Shown here: piece after piece, positions 6,670 to 50,468 of the stretch | Layout of the letters: the number at the start of each line of letters is the position of its first letter | Numbering within the stretch: position 1 is the first letter of the stretch | NCBI RefSeq assembly: GCF_014490485.1 | Contig: NZ_JACTVA010000041.1 | Coordinates: forward strand, 1 to 50,468 | Direction: 5' to 3' | From: Teichococcus aerophilus | GTDB lineage: Bacteria > Pseudomonadota > Alphaproteobacteria > Acetobacterales > Acetobacteraceae | DNA length: 50,468 bases | The notes under the pieces: generated by a model | Database searches by the model: none | Seen by the model: only the letters and a program-made list of their open reading frames with translations | Told to the model about the DNA's origin: nothing | Program-made: the position numbers and the translations under genes

Positions 6670-7113
6670 ATGACGCAGAAATTCGCCCTGCTGCACGCGG
6701 ACGGCAGCGCGCGCGGCTTCCTCTCCGATGACCTGCATGACGAGATCCCGGCCGAGGCTGTGCCGATCTCCGACGAGATCTGGGCCGAGTGGATCGACCA
6801 CACCGCCACGCGCCGCTGGGTCGACGGCCAGCTGCTGGTCATCGAGGTGGAGGAGCCGGCCACGCCGGTGCCGCAGATGATCACGCCGCGCGAGTTCCGC
6901 CTGCGCTTCACCCTGGCCGAGCGCGCCGCGCTGACCCTGGCGGCCTCGCAGACGCTCCTGCAGGGCGATCCCAGCCTGCAGGTCTTCCTCGACGATCTCA
7001 GCGCCGCCCAGACCGTGGATCTCGCCCATCCCGAGATCCTCGCCGGCATGGACGCCATCGTGGCCGCCAATCTGATCAGCCGCGCCCGCGCCGACGAGAT
7101 CCTGGCGGCCTAA
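6670..7113 (+). CDS. fibre-associated/tail-fibre-assembly-like protein
   Basis: A 147-residue protein beginning at ATG 6670, three bases after the fibre stop. Its N-terminal half has the Phe-Ala-Leu-Leu...Trp pattern seen in small phage fibre accessory proteins. The C-terminal half (TPREFRLRFTLAERAAL and on) is a helical segment widely found at the end of phage proteins next to fibres. A chaperone or connector role is inferred from position. Confidence 0.6.
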   Translation: MTQKFALLHADGSARGFLSDDLHDEIPAEAVPISDEIWAEWIDHTATRRWVDGQLLVIEVEEPATPVPQMITPREFRLRFTLAERAALTLAASQTLLQGDPSLQVFLDDLSAAQTVDLAHPEILAGMDAIVAANLISRARADEILAA

Positions 7114-9710: not shown

Positions 9711-11069
9711 ATGGCCACTCTCACGCGCGTCACCCGTCTGCCGGGCATCGTCGCCAAGCCGCAATACGGCACCATCCCGCTGGCGCCGCCCTCGGCGCCG
9801 GGCGCGGTGCGCAACCTGGCGGTCACCAGCATCACGCATAACGGTGCCACGGTGCTGTTCGATGCGCCGGCGACCGGCGGTGCGCCCACCGGCTGGCGCG
9901 CCCGGGTGGCCACCAGCCTGTCCGGCCCGTGGTCGGACGCCATCATCATCACCGCCTCCCCGGCCGTGGTGCCGCTGACGGCGCCGGAGACGACTTATCT
10001 GATCGAAATCGCGGCGATCAACGTCACCGGCCAGGGCCCCTGGTCGGCGCCGGTCAGCGCCACCACGGCGCAGGCGCCGCAGCCGCCGGGCGCAGCCACC
10101 ACGCTGGTGGCCAGCGCCATCCGCCGCACCGCCTTCGTCGCCAGCTGGAGCGACCCCGTGGGCGGCAGCGCGCCGACCTCGGCCGCCCTGCGCTACCGGC
10201 CGCAGGGCGCGACCGCGTGGACCACGATGCCGGGCTTTGCCAAGGGCGCCACGCTGACCGCCCTGACCGCCGGCACGGCCTACGAGTGGCAGGTGCAGCT
10301 GGCGAACGACGCCGGCCCGGGCGCCTGGTCTGCGCTGGCCGCGACCACCACCACGGCCGAGTTCGCCGTGCCGGCCGTCGCCAACCTCGCCGACTGGCGC
10401 AACATGATGGAGACCCCCGAGGCCGGCCGGAAGAATTGGGTCACGGGTGTCGCCGGCGAGATGGTGGGCAGCCCGGTGATGGAGGCCGGCGGCACCAAGG
10501 TCACCAGCTGGTCGGCCTACTACAAGGGCGTGCCGGAGCAGGCGACGCAGACCTTCTACGTGGTCACCAGGTTCCTCGCGCCCATCACCGGCAGTGGCGA
10601 TCGCCCGGTGGTGATCGGCTCCCGCGTGTCCAATGCGGAGATCGGCCTGACGATCTACACCGCAGGCACCTCCCCCGGCCCATCCTCGGTGCCGCTGCGG
10701 CTGTATGCCGGCTTTACCGACGGCACCTCCGTTGCCGCTGGCCCCCCTGGCGGGGTGTCGGTGGATCTGAGCCAGCCGACCATCCTGCGCACGCAGTGCC
10801 GCTCCGGCACGGACGTGTCCTTCAGCGACATCAGCCACAACCTGATCGGCGCCCCGGTCAGCATCTCCACCAAGACGCGGCTGCTCTCCTCGGTGCAGCC
10901 GCTGTTCTACGGCTCGAACAGCGTCTCTGCGTATTCGGGCAGCTGCGTCCTCTACACGGTGGTGGTGGTCAACGGCGTGCCGACCAGCGCCGAAGACGCG
11001 GCCATCGTCGCCGCCATCCGCGCCGAGATGGCCTACTGGAGCGTGGCGGAAGCTGCCGCCGCGGCCTGA
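9711..11069 (+). CDS. fibronectin type III-containing tail protein
   Basis: A 453-residue protein with two fibronectin III repeats (about residues 24-115 and 120-215), seen from Pro-Gly-Ala starts, conserved Trp, and the closing Tyr/Glu-Thr-Thr-Ala motifs. They are followed by a beta-rich C-terminal domain of about 230 residues resembling a lectin-like jelly-roll. FnIII modules on virions often promote weak binding to cell-surface carbohydrate. ATG 9711 is used; a TTG just upstream is less likely, since GGAG at 9698-9701 spaces correctly to the ATG. Confidence 0.8.
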   Translation: MATLTRVTRLPGIVAKPQYGTIPLAPPSAPGAVRNLAVTSITHNGATVLFDAPATGGAPTGWRARVATSLSGPWSDAIIITASPAVVPLTAPETTYLIEIAAINVTGQGPWSAPVSATTAQAPQPPGAATTLVASAIRRTAFVASWSDPVGGSAPTSAALRYRPQGATAWTTMPGFAKGATLTALTAGTAYEWQVQLANDAGPGAWSALAATTTTAEFAVPAVANLADWRNMMETPEAGRKNWVTGVAGEMVGSPVMEAGGTKVTSWSAYYKGVPEQATQTFYVVTRFLAPITGSGDRPVVIGSRVSNAEIGLTIYTAGTSPGPSSVPLRLYAGFTDGTSVAAGPPGGVSVDLSQPTILRTQCRSGTDVSFSDISHNLIGAPVSISTKTRLLSSVQPLFYGSNSVSAYSGSCVLYTVVVVNGVPTSAEDAAIVAAIRAEMAYWSVAEAAAAA

Positions 11070-15978: not shown

Positions 15979-16785
15979 ATGATGTCCACTACCCTCCTGC
16001 CGGCGTCGCCGGCCGCGACGCCGGCCCCTTACCTGGGCGGCAAGCGCAATCTCGCGCGTCGCGTCGTCGCCCGCCTGGGCGCCATTCCGCACATCACTTA
16101 CGTCGAGCCCTTCGTTGGCATGGGTGGCATTTTCCTGCGCCGGTCGTTCAAGGCGCGCGCGGAAGTCATCAACGACATTTCTGGCGACGTGACGACGCTG
16201 TTCCGAATCTTGCAGCGCCACTATGTGCCCTTGATGGACATGCTGCGCTGGCAGCTGACCAGCCGCGCTGATTTCGAGCGCCTGCTGGCGACCAATGCGG
16301 AGACGCTGACCGATCTGGAGCGCGCGGCGCGCTTCCTCTACCTCCAGCGCACCGCCTTTGGCGGCAAGGTCTCCGGCCGCAATTTCGGCGTGTCGGTCGG
16401 AGGCCCTGCCCGCTTCGACGTGACCAAGCTCGGCGCCACGCTGGAGGAGATCCATGAGCGACTGGCGGGCGTCGTCATCGAGCGCCTGCCCTATGCGCAG
16501 CTGATCGCCCGCTACGACCGGCCGGAGACGCTGTTCTATCTCGATCCGCCCTATTGGGGCTGCGAGAAGGATTACGGCCCGGGCGTGTTTGACCGCGGCG
16601 ATTTCGAGCGCCTGGCCGAGCAGCTGGCCGGCATCAAGGGCCGCTTCCTGCTCAGCCTGAACGATACGCCGGGCGTGCGCGAAGTGTTCGGCCGCTTCAC
16701 CATCGAAGCCGTCGAGACCACCTACACGGTCGGGGCCGGCGCCAGCGCGCAGAAGGCGGGCGAGGTGCTGATCAGCAATGGGTAG
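15979..16785 (+). CDS. dam: DNA adenine methyltransferase, Dam/D12 class
   Basis: A 268-residue N6-adenine methylase. YLGGKRNLARRVVARL is the D12-class N-terminal motif, VEPFVGMGGIFLRR is the SAM-binding FxGxG motif, and LFYLDPPYWG is the catalytic DPPY. LQRTAFGGKVSGRNFGV is also typical of the class. No partner endonuclease is adjacent, so it is probably an orphan methylase that protects phage DNA or regulates genes. Recognition sequence cannot be deduced reliably. ATG ATG at 15979 gives the start; the second ATG is equally possible. Confidence 0.9.
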   Translation: MMSTTLLPASPAATPAPYLGGKRNLARRVVARLGAIPHITYVEPFVGMGGIFLRRSFKARAEVINDISGDVTTLFRILQRHYVPLMDMLRWQLTSRADFERLLATNAETLTDLERAARFLYLQRTAFGGKVSGRNFGVSVGGPARFDVTKLGATLEEIHERLAGVVIERLPYAQLIARYDRPETLFYLDPPYWGCEKDYGPGVFDRGDFERLAEQLAGIKGRFLLSLNDTPGVREVFGRFTIEAVETTYTVGAGASAQKAGEVLISNG

Positions 16786-18479: not shown

Positions 18480-19052
18480 CTATGCCGCTCCCTCCGGCGC
18501 CGGGGCCACCAACCCCCATTTCTGCGCCAATGCAGCCATCTTGGCTTCCTCGATAGGGCGGCTTCCCCCTCCCCTTCCCTTATCCACAAGCTTGTTCTTT
18601 TCATCAGAGACTTCGGCTGACCGACTATCGGTATCGCTTGTCCAAAGGCTCGGCGTGGCGAACAGGTAGGCCGAGGTCCACTGGCACCAGCGGGCCACGC
18701 CACGTACTGCGACGACCAGGCCGCGCCGGACGTGGCCCATGATGCCGGCGGCTTCCAGGCGGCAGATGGCGAGCTGCACCGTCGAGCGGGCGCAGCCGGA
18801 CCACGCCGCCAGCTGGCCCAGCGACGGGTCGCAGACGCCATGCTTCGACGGGCCGCGATAGAGCAGCGTCCACAGCACCAGGATGCCGCTACGGCGCAGG
18901 GCGCCGCCATGCATTCCCGGCTGATGGGTCTGCCGCTCCAGGCGGCGGGCGGCTTCCATGATGCGCCTGCGGTCAGCGTCACCGAGGCGTTGGCGCTGCC
19001 ATGGGGCAACGCGCACAGACCCGGCACGGGCCGGGCGTGTTGAGGTAGGCAT
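18480..19052 (-). CDS. plasmid-type replication initiator (winged-helix Rep-like)
   Basis: A 190-residue protein with a central winged-helix region (DPSLGQLAAWSGCARSTVQ, then AICRLEAAGIMGHVRRGL), similar to small helix-turn-helix Rep proteins of alphaproteobacterial plasmids and phages. AAGGAG sits seven bases before ATG 19052. It is transcribed away from parA, with the repeat-rich region between them, and a perfect DnaA box lies in its coding sequence. The Rep assignment rests on the fold-like pattern plus context; a regulatory function is the alternative. Confidence 0.6.
   Translation of the reverse strand: MPTSTRPARAGSVRVAPWQRQRLGDADRRRIMEAARRLERQTHQPGMHGGALRRSGILVLWTLLYRGPSKHGVCDPSLGQLAAWSGCARSTVQLAICRLEAAGIMGHVRRGLVVAVRGVARWCQWTSAYLFATPSLWTSDTDSRSAEVSDEKNKLVDKGRGGGSRPIEEAKMAALAQKWGLVAPAPEGAA
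18580..18588 (+). other. perfect DnaA box inside the Rep-like gene
   Basis: TTATCCACA, the strong consensus DnaA box, is followed by an AT-richer stretch (18589-18610). It is unusual sequence for this GC-rich genome and lies in the 3' part of the Rep-like gene, so the plasmid origin may be inside or beside this gene. Confidence 0.6.
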
Positions 19053-19326
19053 AGGGCTCTCCTTCAGCGGAAAGCCCCCTCGCAGTTGTCATCAAGACAT
19101 AGCCCACCGTTCGCAAAACAGGCTTGCGTTCGGAAGCGCGGCGCCAGATGATGTGGTTCTCACACCTGATCATCCAGCCTTCGGGCTGTTTGGGCCCCTG
19201 TCGCTTCTGCGGCGGGGGCTTTTCAGTTCTAGGTCACGGATTCTGTCCTCATCGACGGTTCGACCGTAGTGTTACCCCTGCTAGGGCGCAACTAAGTCTT
19301 TACAAAATCACGATAAACGCCCGGAC
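19053..19326. other. intergenic region between rep-like gene and parA array (candidate origin/promoters)
   Basis: No gene can be supported here. It holds small hairpins (for example CAGCC-TTCG-GGCTG followed by TTT near 19171), an AT-rich stretch at 19291-19313, and presumably the divergent promoters for rep and parA. The array of octamers begins at its right edge. An origin of replication is plausible but not demonstrable from the sequence alone. Confidence 0.4.
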
Positions 19327-19398
19327 CGGAATATCGGAGTTCCGAATATCCGACATACCGGTTGACCGGAATACCGATTAGTCGAATAGTCGGGATAT
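19327..19398. repeat. octamer array 1 (9 units), candidate centromere/operator
   Basis: The dinucleotide CG recurs at exactly 8-base steps nine times (19327, 19335 ... 19391). In every unit the base after CG is a purine and the base before the next CG is a pyrimidine. The array abuts the parA start codon at 19397, so it probably serves as both partition site and parA operator. It resembles in principle the heptad arrays bound by RHH partition proteins such as omega, but with an 8-base period. Confidence 0.85.
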
Positions 19399-20095
19399 GC
19401 AACCACCCATCTTGGCCTTGGCCAGCACAAAAGGCGGGGTCGGCAAGACCACCTTGGCCTTTTGCCTCGCAACTGAACTAGCGCGCCGACTGTCCGATAT
19501 GTCGGATAGTCGGGATACCGACAGTCCGGATAACCGGGTTGTCGAATGTATTGACGCTGACCCCAACCAGACGCTCTACCAAGCGATTCGGCGGGGCAGG
19601 CCGCCTGGTGTTCGAGCTGAGGTGGCGAACGGAGAGACATTGCTGACGGCCGTCAGCGAAGCTAGCCGTCGCGCCAAGTTGGTGGTGATCGACCTGGAGG
19701 GTAGTGCCAACCAAGCGATGCTGTACGCCTGTGGCAAAGCCAACCTCGTGCTTATCCCGGCGCAGCCCTCGCTGTTCGACGTGGTAGAGGCGCTAAAGAC
19801 GCACAATGTGGTCGAGCAAGCGGCGGATCTAACGCAGCGGGAGATCACCGCCAGGGTAGTGCTATCCCGCACGCCCGTACTGAAGCAGCGGGTGGTGGAG
19901 CACAGCCGGAAACAGTTTGCTGAGCGGGGACTACCCATGCTCTCGGCCGAGCTGATGGAACGGACGGCCTTCCGTCTTATGACCTACACTGGAACACCGC
20001 CCTGGGAGGACGATCCAGAAGGTGGAGCAGCTGCTAATGTTACCGCCCTTGGCGATGAGGTCGCTGCTCTGCTCGGATGGCCTGACAATGGCTAA
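19397..20095 (+). CDS. parA: ParA-family partition ATPase (type Ib-like)
   Basis: A 232-residue P-loop ATPase with deviant Walker A KGGVGKTT (residues 12-19), Walker A'-type DADPNQ (residues 53-58) and Walker B LVVIDLEGSA. It lacks an N-terminal HTH, as in small type Ib ParA proteins. Between the first helix and DADP it carries a short Asp/Ser-rich stretch (residues 33-50) encoded by an octamer array, where relatives have only a few residues. It overlaps the RHH gene by eight bases. Expected to segregate the circular prophage as a low-copy plasmid. Confidence 0.93.
   Translation: MQPPILALASTKGGVGKTTLAFCLATELARRLSDMSDSRDTDSPDNRVVECIDADPNQTLYQAIRRGRPPGVRAEVANGETLLTAVSEASRRAKLVVIDLEGSANQAMLYACGKANLVLIPAQPSLFDVVEALKTHNVVEQAADLTQREITARVVLSRTPVLKQRVVEHSRKQFAERGLPMLSAELMERTAFRLMTYTGTPPWEDDPEGGAAANVTALGDEVAALLGWPDNG
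19497..19560. repeat. octamer array 2 (8 units) inside parA
   Basis: CG recurs at exact 8-base steps from 19497 to 19553, with the same YCGR core as the flanking arrays. Because 8 is not a multiple of 3, the repeat is read in all three frames, giving the Ser/Asp/Arg-rich peptide at residues 34-55 of ParA. The array is therefore both protein-coding and, presumably, a binding site. Confidence 0.85.
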
Positions 20096-20396
20096 ACGCC
20101 CCGCCGAGATTCCAAGCCTGAGCGACGAGGATCTGCGAGAGCGCCTTCAACCTCTCGCTGACAAGGTCCTGCCTCATAAGACCCCGGCGCCACCCCAGGC
20201 CGCGCCGCAGAAGTCGCGACGCAAAGGCATCGAGTTCATGTTGCCAGAGGCGGTCATCTTGGAGATCAAGATGAGGGCAGCTCGCCGCGGCATTTCCGCG
20301 ACGAGCCTCATGCTTGAGGTCTTACGAGATGCCGGCTTCCCTGTCGTGCCCATGGATTTTGTCGACATGAGGAAAGCACCCCGGAAATCCGGATAG
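20088..20396 (+). CDS. parB: ribbon-helix-helix partition protein (ParB/omega-like role)
   Basis: A 102-residue protein with a basic, disordered-looking N-terminus (residues 1-45) and a C-terminal RHH fold: strand GIEFMLPEAV, helix ILEIKMRAARRG, helix SATSLMLEVLRDAG. ATG 20088 overlaps the parA stop by eight bases, indicating coupled expression. In type Ib systems such small RHH proteins bind repeat arrays and stimulate ParA. The octamer arrays at 19327, 19497 and 20382 are the natural candidates for its targets. The parB symbol is by role, not homology to HTH-type ParB. Confidence 0.8.
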   Translation: MAKRPAEIPSLSDEDLRERLQPLADKVLPHKTPAPPQAAPQKSRRKGIEFMLPEAVILEIKMRAARRGISATSLMLEVLRDAGFPVVPMDFVDMRKAPRKSG

Positions 20397-20501
20397 TCGG
20401 TTTACCGGTATGCCGACCAACCGGGCAGCCGACTTGTCGGTCCCCCGACAAGTCGGATATCCGGATTTCCGAGTATCCGATATGCCGACAAGTCGGATAT
20501 C
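20382..20501. repeat. octamer array 3 (15 units), candidate main centromere
   Basis: Fifteen consecutive CG dinucleotides at exact 8-base spacing (20382 to 20494), beginning inside the last codons of the RHH gene. All units have a purine after CG, and all have a pyrimidine as the last base. Some octamers recur identically (CGGATATC and CGACAAGT twice each). The longest of the three arrays, it is the best candidate for the partition site. Confidence 0.88.
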
Positions 20502-20688
20502 TTAGTGTTGGCTTTAGCTGAGTGGCACTGCCGCCTAAGGCGCCTACGCGGGGGTAGGCATCTTGACATGCGCAAGGCGTTGCGTGGTCCTTGCGGCAGC
20601 AAGCGCAAGCAGTTGAGGGATAATCTGAAAGCTACGCCGCGCCTGTCTTTCTGATCTAGTTCAATATCTAAATCATGCCCGGCCGGAG

Positions 20689-20750
20689 CATTCCGTCCGG
20701 GCAATTTCAACCCTCTCATTCCGTCCGATAATCAGACTTTTCGGACGGAA
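20689..20750. repeat. dispersed palindrome pair (CATTCCGTCCG element), copy 1
   Basis: CATTCCGTCCGA at 20717 pairs with TCGGACGGAA at 20741, with a short AT-rich loop. A half copy (CATTCCGTCCGG) stands at 20689 within a second stem. Similar palindromes occur at 22253 and 23415. This one lies in the 480-base gap between the partition array and the PIN gene; the rest of that gap (20502-20688, 20751-20981) shows no gene that I can support. Confidence 0.7.
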
Positions 20751-20981
20751 CATGGAGAAACGCCGGGAACTGGCCGAGAGCGGACAGCCCGAATACAGCT
20801 GGAGCGGGTCGTGCCGCGACATACTTGTCGATTCTGTTAGTATTGGCGGCCAGCGCCAAACGGCCTTCTGATATCCTGCAGGGGGTGGCTGCCGCACGCA
20901 CCGAGGGATCGACAGCCTGCGGGTGGTGACCATGCGCTTGGACGCCGCTAGCCTCCGCGCTCACTCTTCAGCGGGGCCAGG

Positions 20982-22016
20982 ATGAAGCTCAAACTAGTGA
21001 TCGACACGTCGGTGTGGCTAGATCTCACGAAAGACCCGCGCCATCTGCCGCTGCTAGATGCCCTATTCGCCATGACGGAGGCGGGCGAAGTTGAACTGAT
21101 CCTGCCGCAGATCATCCTCGATGAATTCGCCCGCAACCGGGACCGAGTAATGGCGTCTAGCCGCGCCAGCCTGTCGAGCCACTTCAAGCGGGTGAAGGAC
21201 GCAATCGTGCAGTTCGCACCGGAGGTCGGCCGGCTCGAGCTCCTTAAGCAGCTGAACGAGATTGACCATCGCATCGCCACTGGCGGCGAGGCTGTGAATG
21301 AGGCGGTTGGCCTTATTGAGAAGCTGTTCACCACAACCGAACCGATCCCCGTCAGCGAAAGCGTAAAGGCCCGTGCAGCGGACCGCGCTATCGCCAAGGT
21401 TGCCCCGTTCCACCGGCAGATAAACGGTATCGGAGACGCGATAATTATTGAAACATACATAGACGCACTCGCGGAGCGGGAGGGCGAAGACATGCTCGCG
21501 TTCGTCACGCACAACATCCACGATTTCAGTCAGAAGGGCGCCGACACGCGCTTACCGCACCCTGACCTCGCGGCCATCTTCGATGGGGTGCACTCGCGCT
21601 ACTCAACCAACCTTGGCGCGCTCCTGAACGAGTACGCCAGCGACCTAATCGAGGAGATCACCTTCGACCGGGAATACAGCCAAGAGCCTCGGGCGCTATC
21701 TGAATTGCTCGAAGCCGAGGACAAGCTGACGACGCAAATTTGGTACGGCCGCAAGTGGGGCATCATTGACGCAGTCGAGAGCGGAAAACAAAAGCGGGTT
21801 CCAAGGGAGGTCTGGGAGGCTGCCACGCTCGAAGATCGGCGGGGAATGATTGTGGATAAGATATGGGAGGGCATGATCGCCGCCATGAAGTCCACCGAAG
21901 AGCAGTACCCCGACGAACTAGGCCCGTGGACCGATTTCGAGTGGGGAATGCTCAGCGGCAAGCTGTCCGCTATTCGCTGGATGTTCGGCGACGAGTGGGA
22001 CATGCTGGACACTTAG
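20982..22016 (+). CDS. PIN-domain nuclease (DUF4935-like)
   Basis: A 344-residue protein. Residues 1-185 form a PIN domain with all acidic positions present: Asp8 in VIDTSVWLDL, Glu48 in ILDEFARNRD, Asp152 in NGIGDAIIIE and Asp181 in THNIHDFS. About 160 further residues form a helical, acidic domain of unknown type. Such stand-alone PIN proteins are RNA-cleaving toxins or defence effectors; no antitoxin gene of usual size is adjacent. Its moderate GC and position between two palindrome copies suggest an acquired cassette. Confidence 0.85.
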   Translation: MKLKLVIDTSVWLDLTKDPRHLPLLDALFAMTEAGEVELILPQIILDEFARNRDRVMASSRASLSSHFKRVKDAIVQFAPEVGRLELLKQLNEIDHRIATGGEAVNEAVGLIEKLFTTTEPIPVSESVKARAADRAIAKVAPFHRQINGIGDAIIIETYIDALAEREGEDMLAFVTHNIHDFSQKGADTRLPHPDLAAIFDGVHSRYSTNLGALLNEYASDLIEEITFDREYSQEPRALSELLEAEDKLTTQIWYGRKWGIIDAVESGKQKRVPREVWEAATLEDRRGMIVDKIWEGMIAAMKSTEEQYPDELGPWTDFEWGMLSGKLSAIRWMFGDEWDMLDT

Positions 22017-32273: not shown

Positions 32274-33293
32274 ATGAGCATTCCCTGCATGAACTGGGTG
32301 AAGGGCATGCACCGCACCCGGATCAAGCCCTCTCCGCGCACGGTCCTGCGCGAGCTGGCGGATTTTGCCGACGAGCGTGATGGGTGCTGGCCTTCGGTCC
32401 AGCTCATCTGTGACTGCACAAGCTTGTCGAAGCGGGCCGTCCTGGACGCTCTGGCGGTGCTGGAGGAGATGGGCCTGATCACGGTGCAACGGCGCCATCG
32501 CACCTCGTCTCGCTACCGGCTGAACCGACACCTGGACCTGACGCAACCGGCTTTGGGTGCGCCATCTGCACCCAAGAAGCCAAAGGCCCAGAAGCCTTCA
32601 AAAGAGTCTAGTCAGGATAACGATCTTTCGGATTCCTCTGCCCCGAATTCTGGCTTGGGTGCAAATGGCGCACCCAAGGCCGACGCCCAGGATCTGGCGT
32701 CGTGCGGTGCAGATTCTGTCGCCCATGCGGTGCAAATTTCGTCATTCTTGGGTGCAGCAGCTGCACCCCAACCACCAAAGAACCACCAAGGAACCACCAG
32801 GGGGAGGGGCGCGAGCGCGCGCCCGACCCCCCTCCCGCCGGATTGGCAACCAGGGGAGGCAGGGGAGGCTTACGCCCGCCGCCTCGGCCTGGACCCTGCG
32901 CCGCTGACGGTGCGCTTCCGCAAGACGTTCCTCGCCAGCGGCAAGCGCCTGGCCGACTGGTCCCAGCGCTGGGAGCTGTGGTGCGACGAGGACGCGGCCG
33001 AGAAGGGTTCCGCCGCGCCAACTGCTGCGCCGACTTCGGCTGGGCCCAGCATCGAGCGGGATGAACGGGGACTGACGAGTTCCGACCGGGGGTGGCTGGC
33101 GAAGTGGCAGGCGAAGATCGACGCCGAGGAGCATCCCGGCCAGCTGGAGGACATGCTGGGGCGGATGCTGAGCCAGGAGGGGAAGGCTGAGTTGGTTCGC
33201 TTGAAGGCCGCCCTGTCTCAAACCCCGGCGAAAGGCGCAGAATTCTTCCGCCCGTCTCAACCGCAGCGCGGAATTATCTTCACACGCCCGTGA
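32274..33293 (+). CDS. phage replication protein, lambda O-like (winged helix)
   Basis: A 339-residue protein. Residues 20-85 form a winged-helix origin-binding-type domain (KPSPRTVLRELADFADERDG, then SLSKRAVLDALAVLEEMGLI). A long Ser/Pro/Ala linker (residues 85-185) is encoded by the stretch that contains three palindromic iterons. The C-terminal part (residues 190-300) resembles the helicase-loader-contacting end of O-type proteins. No helicase gene follows, so host helicase would be recruited. Confidence 0.75.
   Translation: MSIPCMNWVKGMHRTRIKPSPRTVLRELADFADERDGCWPSVQLICDCTSLSKRAVLDALAVLEEMGLITVQRRHRTSSRYRLNRHLDLTQPALGAPSAPKKPKAQKPSKESSQDNDLSDSSAPNSGLGANGAPKADAQDLASCGADSVAHAVQISSFLGAAAAPQPPKNHQGTTRGRGASARPTPLPPDWQPGEAGEAYARRLGLDPAPLTVRFRKTFLASGKRLADWSQRWELWCDEDAAEKGSAAPTAAPTSAGPSIERDERGLTSSDRGWLAKWQAKIDAEEHPGQLEDMLGRMLSQEGKAELVRLKAALSQTPAKGAEFFRPSQPQRGIIFTRP
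32553..32771. other. iterons inside the O-like gene, candidate lytic origin
   Basis: Three palindromes of the form TTGGGTGC-N7-GCACCCAA lie at 32553-32575, 32654-32678 (nine-base arms) and 32748-32771 (right arm with one inserted C), all with a seven-base spacer. Half sites (GCGGTGCA) at about 32704 and 32727 and AT-richer spans lie between them. The lambda origin is likewise a set of iterons inside gene O. Binding by the O-like protein is inferred. Confidence 0.75.
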
Positions 33294-48603: not shown

Positions 48604-50468
48604 TGTCAGCATCGGTGAAGGGCGGCGCGCTCAGCCTGACGCTGAGCGCCGTCGATGGCATCACCAAGCCCTTGGAGCGGATCAATCAGAACGTCCTGCG
48701 CGTGCAGAACAGTTTTGGTCGGCTGGGGCAGAATGTCGGCCGGGTCAGTGGCATGAATGCGTTGGCCGCCGGCGCGCGCAATGTGGCGCGCTCGATGGCG
48801 CAGATCATTCCGCCGCTGGGCGCGCTGACGGCGGCCGGCTCGGTCGCCGGCGTCGTGCATCTGGCCGCGCGCTGGGCCAGTTTCGGCGTGCAGCTGGGGC
48901 ACACCGCCTACCGGGTGCAGACCAGCGTCGCCAGCCTGCTCACCCTGCAGGGCGCGGCGCGGCTGGCCGGCGTGTCGGCCGAGGATCTCTCCGCCGGCAT
49001 GGAGGGGCTGGGCGATGCCCTGTCCGACGCCGTGGGCGGCCGCGACAGCACCGCCCTGCAGTACTTCACCATGCTTGGCGTCGCCATGCGCGATGCAAGG
49101 GGCAATGCCCGCACGGCGGCCGAGGCGCTGCCGCAGGTGGCCGATGGCATCGCCCGCATCGCCGATCCCCGCCTGCAGGCGCGGGTCATGTCGGCGCTGC
49201 GGCTGCCGGCCTCGATGCTGCCCTTCCTGAAGAAAGGCTCCGCCGGCCTGCGCGAGTGGGAGGCCGATGCCCGCCGCTTTGGCCTGATCACCGAGGAAGG
49301 CGCCGAGGCGGCGCAGAAATTCAACCTGGCACAGACCCGGCTGCAGATGGCCGGCGAAGGGCTGGTCAACACCATCGCCCAGCGCCTGGCCCCGGTGATG
49401 ACGCCGCTGCTGAACCGGCTGACCAACTGGATCGCCGCCAACCGCGAGCTGATCGGCCAGCGGGTGGAAGAGATCGTCACGCGCCTGGCCGGCGCCGTGG
49501 AACGCTTCATCCAGAATGGCGGCCTGCAGGAAATCGGCAGCCGGATCGAAGCCATGGTGAGCGGCATCCAAGCCGTGATCCGCTGGATGGGCGGCTGGGA
49601 GAATGCGGCGATCGCGCTGGGCGGCGTGCTGGCCCTGCAACTGCTGGCGCCGCTGACCGGCATTGTCGGCGCCTTGACCACCATCGCACTCTTCCGGCCG
49701 GCAGCCTGGATGCTGCGGCTGCTGGGCGTGACCGGTGCCGGCGTGGGCGCGGCCGCCGTCGCAGGATTCCTGGGCGTCCAGCGCCTCGGCGAGATGCGGG
49801 CCGAGAGCGGCGCCAATACCCCCGAGGGTCAGGCGGAGCGCCGCCGGCGGATGGGCCAGCGTGGTCAGGCCGAGGGCTACTACGACCCGGCGGCCGATCG
49901 CAGCGTTGATCCTGGCCGCCAGTGGGCCGGCCTGGGCGCCTATCTGCGCAGTCAGATGACCCCGGGCGGCGGCCGGCAGGGGCAGCCCCGCTCCTATACG
50001 GGCGAGGAAGCCACCGCACGGCAGCGCCAGGCCTTCGACTACTTCCGCTCGCAGGGTTGGAGCGCGGCGCAGGCCAGCGGTCTGGTGGCCAACCTGCGGC
50101 ACGAGAGCGGCGCCGGCCTGGACCACCAGGCGCGCGGCGACGGCGGCAAGGCCTACGGCATCGCGCAGTGGCACCCTGACCGGCAGCGCAATTTCCGCCT
50201 CTGGGCCGGCAAGCCGATCCAGGAGAGCACTCTGGAAGAGCAGCTGGCCTTTGTGCAGTTCGAGCTGACCCAGGGGCAGGAGCGCGCCGCCGGCGCCGCC
50301 CTGCGCAATGCGCGGACCCCGGCCGAGGCCGCCGGCGTGGTGTCGCGCCAGTACGAGCGGCCGGCGAACCGGGAGGGCGAAGCCGCCGCCCGGGCGCAGA
50401 CCGCGACATCGATGCTGCCGCGCCTGGCCGCGCCGGCCGGCACGGCCGTCGCCTCCGGTACGCCGGCC
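48603..50468 (+). CDS. tape-measure protein with C-terminal lysozyme domain (continues at 1-174)
   Basis: At least 620 residues here, plus about 40 across the junction. The N-terminal half is helical with hydrophobic segments, for example NAAIALGGVLALQLLAPLTG. The region encoded near 50020-50380 (AFDYFRSQGWSAAQASGLVA, NLRHESGAGLDHQARGDGG, AYGIAQWHPDRQ) fits the phage tail lysozyme family; Glu in RHESG is the presumed catalytic acid. It sets tail length and would locally digest peptidoglycan on DNA entry. Short for a tape measure, implying a short tail. Confidence 0.85.
   Translation, partial: MSASVKGGALSLTLSAVDGITKPLERINQNVLRVQNSFGRLGQNVGRVSGMNALAAGARNVARSMAQIIPPLGALTAAGSVAGVVHLAARWASFGVQLGHTAYRVQTSVASLLTLQGAARLAGVSAEDLSAGMEGLGDALSDAVGGRDSTALQYFTMLGVAMRDARGNARTAAEALPQVADGIARIADPRLQARVMSALRLPASMLPFLKKGSAGLREWEADARRFGLITEEGAEAAQKFNLAQTRLQMAGEGLVNTIAQRLAPVMTPLLNRLTNWIAANRELIGQRVEEIVTRLAGAVERFIQNGGLQEIGSRIEAMVSGIQAVIRWMGGWENAAIALGGVLALQLLAPLTGIVGALTTIALFRPAAWMLRLLGVTGAGVGAAAVAGFLGVQRLGEMRAESGANTPEGQAERRRRMGQRGQAEGYYDPAADRSVDPGRQWAGLGAYLRSQMTPGGGRQGQPRSYTGEEATARQRQAFDYFRSQGWSAAQASGLVANLRHESGAGLDHQARGDGGKAYGIAQWHPDRQRNFRLWAGKPIQESTLEEQLAFVQFELTQGQERAAGAALRNARTPAEAAGVVSRQYERPANREGEAAARAQTATSMLPRLAAPAGTAVASGTPA
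50418..50468. repeat. terminal direct repeat, right copy (circular junction)
   Basis: Identical to bases 1-51. See the left copy: joining the two gives a circular genome with the tape-measure gene intact. Confidence 0.9.

Follow-up and report, generated by a model that had tools for sequence, protein, structure and literature searches.

Three period-8 arrays at a parA locus

The locus described here raises the question why a short repeat unit should be written at exact 8-base steps not only around a putative partition gene pair, but also within the reading frame of its ATPase. The window, by which we mean the whole stretch of DNA analyzed, is a 50,468-bp contig of a 5.66 Mb genome. Because of a 51-base terminal direct overlap (positions 1-51 and 50418-50468), the contig is probably circular. 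A scan of 19 window proteins identified a terminase, portal, head protease, tail sheath, baseplate, replication initiator, and integrase-like proteins. Since phage structural genes are among them, we regard the window as a phage, and plausibly as a phage-plasmid. A gene for a D12-class adenine methyltransferase is located at 15979-16785.

Array 1 (19326..19397) consists of nine YCGRNNNN units 5' of parA, and the A of the parA start codon is the last base of its ninth unit. Array 2 (19486..19549) comprises eight such units within parA, in and around a 14-residue insertion that was placed between helix 1 of ParA and the next strand. Array 3 (20381..20500) contains fifteen units, the first two of which overlap the final codons and the stop codon of the RHH-like gene downstream of parA. 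The exact period-8 CG runs number 9 (19327-19392), 8 (19487-19544), and 15 (20382-20495), as reported by a first-pass annotation made from the sequence alone, and its claim that a purine follows all 32 CGs also stands, with 32/32 of them conforming to YCGR. Its coordinates agree with ours for arrays 1 and 3, whereas array 2, given as 19497-19560, had been placed about 10-16 bases too far to the right. Read as CGRNNNNY, 31 of the 32 units end in a pyrimidine, again as proposed, the exception being the last unit of array 2. The other four positions had been thought to vary widely, but they are not free: among 219 matching units from the window and six close relatives (60 upstream, 53 inside, and 106 downstream; non-matching units within the spans excluded), spacer position 6 is A/T in 88-92% and position 7 in 70-82%. 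The cores of these units are CCGA, TCGG, or CCGG, with TCGA in 10/219. YCGR is a two-fold symmetric tetramer class and as such would suit recognition by a homodimer.

Such runs are not expected by chance. Third-order Markov simulations of the window (100) reached a YCGR run of at most 4 at period 8 (3/100) and a CG run of at most 7 (likewise 3/100). The first-pass annotation had named frequent period-8 CG elsewhere in the genome as a finding that would speak against it. In a host genome sample of 535,279 bases (40 stretches with 2,517 N, ∼9% of the genome), YCGR runs did not exceed 3, a length seen nine times, and CG runs did not exceed 6; within this sample, period-8 CG is therefore not common. 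Within the window, no other YCGR period-8 run of at least 3 was found outside 19000-20800. At period 7, no YCGR run of at least 3 occurs anywhere in the window; the long runs are those of period 8. Promoter and terminator scans gave results at chance level, with a single promoter site, located within array 1, against 0.7 expected.

The putative partition gene pair

The parA gene (19397..20095, + strand) encodes a 232-aa ParA ATPase with the Walker box KGGVGKTT at residues 12-19. This deviant Walker box is present without a long N-terminal DNA-binding domain. The protein matched phrog_164 (E 1.2e-24), and its best PDB profile matches were ParA (5u1g) and ParF (4dzz), both with E about 2e-22. 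The AlphaFold model had a mean pLDDT of 84.6, and residues 39-43, which lie within the array 2 loop, were the only stretch of at least three residues with pLDDT below 50.

The second gene (20088..20396, + strand) encodes 102 aa when read from the ATG used in relatives. Its start codon overlaps the parA stop codon, and the two genes share 8 bases. We call its product, a putative centromere-binding protein, RHH-like on the basis of weak matches and of the gene position. All Pfam matches of the RHH type were below the cut-off (best E 0.0007), no PHROGs match was obtained, and a PDB profile search with its alignment returned nothing useful; queries with this protein began at residue 2 (20091). The monomer model was poor (mean pLDDT 68.4, pTM 0.35), with helices at 53-66 and 70-80 and no strand assigned, and Foldseek matches obtained with it included CopG, Arc, and ParG, every one with E above 1. 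As in type I partition modules, an array of short, regularly spaced repeats adjoins the parA and RHH-like genes. The gene at 20982-22016, just 3' of array 3, codes for a protein with a PIN domain (PIN_12, E 8e-25).

Recurrence of the arrays in relatives

The first-pass annotation had suggested searching related phage-plasmids for period-8 CG next to parA. The six distinct close relatives found, with 88-90% identical ParA proteins, carry arrays at all three places (L002, L003, L004, L007, L026, which is the same as L008, and L027, which is the same as L009). They comprise three IMG/VR contigs, R. marmotae p1318-6, R. haemaphysalidis p546-4, and one more genome of the genus; the closest par relatives fall in the same genus (Roseomonas-type). 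Matching units number 7-10 upstream, 6-8 inside parA, and 5-14 per downstream block. Four of the six have two downstream blocks, and some units are broken.

This distribution bears on the idea that a Rep protein binds the arrays as replication iterons. They are direct repeats on a probably circular replicon, and a replication initiation protein is indeed encoded at 32274-33290. But the arrays surround parA and the RHH gene, ∼12 kb away from that gene, and two plasmid records as well as three IMG/VR contigs have them next to this par pair. Iterons are therefore a highly improbable explanation. For the partition module, co-occurrence with the gene pair is one of two grounds to regard the arrays as putative partition sites with the RHH protein, which the first-pass annotation had also named, as their likely reader; the other is the flanking layout of the RedRock system described below.

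More distant modules retain parts of this arrangement. In L010 (ParA 71% identical), the repeats are weaker and CCGG-rich, and our script detected only the run inside parA (5/6 units). In L011 (ParA 66%), 5/6 units stand upstream and five inside parA at another loop, and a further period-8 YCGR array with 7/8 units lies inside the RHH gene, in a stretch coding for a linker (L011:1746-1805). At the usual parA site of L011, two matching units flank a broken one, which could be due to chance alone. In L322 (ParA 58-62%), where the insertion is longer, the usual parA site holds nine CG steps that are mostly CCGG, and no other period-8 run of at least 7 occurs between -500 and +1700 of parA. In 200 simulations of the 20 kb around it, CG runs reached 7 at most and CGG runs 5, compared to 9 observed for both. 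Among 40 viral ParA relatives (three close ones excluded), L322 was the sole one with a period-8 run of at least 7. Overall, the intragenic array is documented for the seven close modules, L010, and L322. L011 has no more than a remnant, and the array looks confined to this one clade.

The phage contig of L322, G640 (L386, L388), contains further short CCGGnnnn clusters at 6884, 10657, and 45059. Compared to its own null, the 5-unit clusters at 6884 and 45059 are near the range, and the 4-unit cluster at 10657 is within it. One cluster precedes parA by 1.1 kb, and another follows it by 2 kb. The idea that the array in the L322 parA is probably the only centromere of G640 was dropped, given these similar clusters elsewhere on the contig.

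Array 2 is conserved at the DNA level

The seven parA genes align over 232 codons free of gaps, and 53/56 array 2 units are intact. An 8-base step passes through all three codon phases, and a short protein repeat therefore cannot produce array 2. Its CG columns are identical in 100/94/94% at codon positions 1/2/3, compared to 57/67/57% for the spacer columns and 93/97/52% for the columns of the rest of parA. Within the core, the Y and R letters are not fixed at third positions, where core columns are identical in 76%. The five CG columns at third positions differ from the rest (resampling p 0.0002, a value that is indicative only, since the seven genes are not independent draws). Of the other six genes, 94% keep a given array 2 YCGR, compared to 43% for the 104 YCGRs elsewhere in parA. 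CGs on codon positions 1-2 (arginine codons) are also kept outside the array (88%); the contrast comes from the other two CG phases, with 100% and 95% inside the array versus 48% and 45% outside.

At the protein level, residues 35-49 of the ParA loop are 58% identical, compared to 94% elsewhere, and the array 2 segment forms a 14-residue insertion relative to three outgroup ParAs. Judged from these alignments, array 2 is kept as DNA while the loop that it encodes drifts.

Array 2 could still be a by-product, that is, units that spread to a loop tolerant of change, where they have weak or no binding and no centromere function. The tolerance of the loop, the units at other coding sites of L011, and the three CCGGnnnn clusters of G640, though these are near or within the null, would fit such an origin. 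The DNA-level conservation over seven genes, together with the 8-base units at the same parA site in L010 and L322, argues for selection instead, and we regard a mere by-product as unlikely. A further centromere block is the reading that we carry forward for array 2.

Comparison with known partition systems

The first-pass annotation had proposed that an 8-base, CG-phased array would be a distinct centromere type. We rejected this proposal, since the ParB of mycobacteriophage RedRock is reported to recognize two parS loci of 8-bp repeats (PMC7157519), and degenerate tetramer boxes with AT-rich spacers are also reported for parH of TP228 (PMC7308502). In the RedRock sequence (GU339467), parS-L and parS-R consist mostly of TCGAnnnn units at 8-base steps, with TCGAGTAG-type units at this spacing upstream of parA and again starting at the parB end. 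The arrays of Maminiaina resemble those of RedRock. In Gordonia phage Anon, period-8 repeats of a different unit extend from the end of parB, but not above the null margin.

The RedRock module, a cluster A parABS system, shares with the window a phage-borne ParA with a small ParB of weak RHH match, two arrays of 8-bp units flanking the partition genes, and a downstream array that overlaps the end of parB. Its TCGA core is one form of the YCGR of the window. Differences are that the RedRock core is mostly TCGA, that its ParA lacks the loop insertion, with the same 14-residue gap as the outgroups, and that no period-8 run of at least 6 occurs inside its parA. The two ParA proteins are 28% identical over 156 columns, and BLASTP did not align the window RHH protein with the one RedRock-type ParB compared, even at an E limit of 100. 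We propose that the module would work like the RedRock system, but, because these two proteins do not align, do not assign it as a member. A centromere with CG at 8-base steps is thus no new kind, and what stands out is the array inside parA. This unusual feature had been listed in the first-pass annotation, but without emphasis. Among the matches listed in a search of the open-access literature, we found no report of a parS inside parA.

The parH site of TP228 has a 4+4 base step and an ACTC box, the sequence of which differs from that of the window. We know of no array inside the TP228 ATPase gene, and as far as we know, the arrays of pSM19035 do not lie inside the ATPase gene either. TP228 resembles the window in its ATPase ParF, one of the two best PDB profile matches, and in its degenerate boxes with AT-rich spacers; its RHH partner would correspond to the RHH-like protein of the window. 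In the delta-omega-parS system of pSM19035, a ParA and an RHH protein act on contiguous short repeats, which measure 7 bases as opposed to 8 in the window, and full ATPase activation is reported to need at least four contiguous repeats (PMC9499535).

If the arrays were operators only, the RHH protein would regulate parA and its own gene from them, and the centromere would be located elsewhere. Such a role would agree with the position of array 1 directly before parA and with ParG, which is described to bind both parH and an operator upstream of parFG (PMC7308502). But the longest array of the window, array 3, is found 3' of the two genes, comparable runs are confined to this locus within the window, and the two flanking arrays of RedRock are both described as parS (PMC7157519). 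A purely regulatory role is therefore clearly improbable.

A model for the ParA/RHH module

We propose that the locus is a ParA/RHH partition module in which RHH-coated arrays, including the block in the ParA loop, serve as parS and operator sites, a reading based on sequence comparison to which we assign a probability of roughly 0.8. The RHH protein would most likely line up on the arrays as adjacent dimers, each on one 8-base unit, with its paired strands reading the YCGR core in the major groove and the 4-base, A/T-leaning spacer setting the step. Once coated with RHH protein, the arrays would serve as parS centromeres and engage ParA. With its end on the parA start codon, array 1 would probably also be a site of repression for the operon. 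Array 2 may add another centromere block, lodged in a surface loop that ParA tolerates. The parA gene would then encode the motor and at the same time form part of the handle on the cargo, and RHH protein bound there could also hinder transcription through parA.

A wider interpretation is more tentative, and we hold it to be somewhat more likely wrong than right. Here, the array in the coding sequence of its own motor would be a DNA code selected over the loop, the bound RHH protein would tether the replicon and at the same time throttle parA, and the repeats would move or expand within coding sequences of this clade. In L011, the coding loops that hold units are a second parA loop and the RHH linker. 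If true, the array in the motor gene would be a clear case of a coding sequence selected as a DNA-binding array, and array 2 would suggest a direct coupling of centromere occupancy to motor expression. The module would provide an alphaproteobacterial phage/plasmid counterpart of the 8-bp centromeres of mycobacteriophages, and its degenerate core makes the RHH code testable.

Period-8 repeats beyond the clade

A viral scan for eight YCGR units returned 108 stretches, 10 of which contain a KGG-type Walker motif. L172, L218, and L234 resemble the close relatives, another five (L155, L161, L171, L182, L236) were taken for cluster A mycobacteriophages by their likeness to RedRock, and the remaining two are L240 and L244. 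The same scan of the genome collection yielded at least 120 stretches. Among the 120 listed, 16 had runs with at least 70% distinct units, and none contained a KGG-type Walker motif within the stretch fetched.

Period 8 was not seen to accompany this ParA family in general, as it exceeded the null in 9/53 loci of other ParA or RHH relatives. Three of these nine hold the window, L011, or a second L021 copy, and the other six only tie with period 6. The one clear case is L021, with a period-8 array of a CGAAA-like unit and 13 exact TT steps (L021:2444-2606). This array adjoins another parA of the same genus. Near a ParA relative in L022, we observed a near-perfect 7-base satellite with 49 steps (L022:2417-2758).
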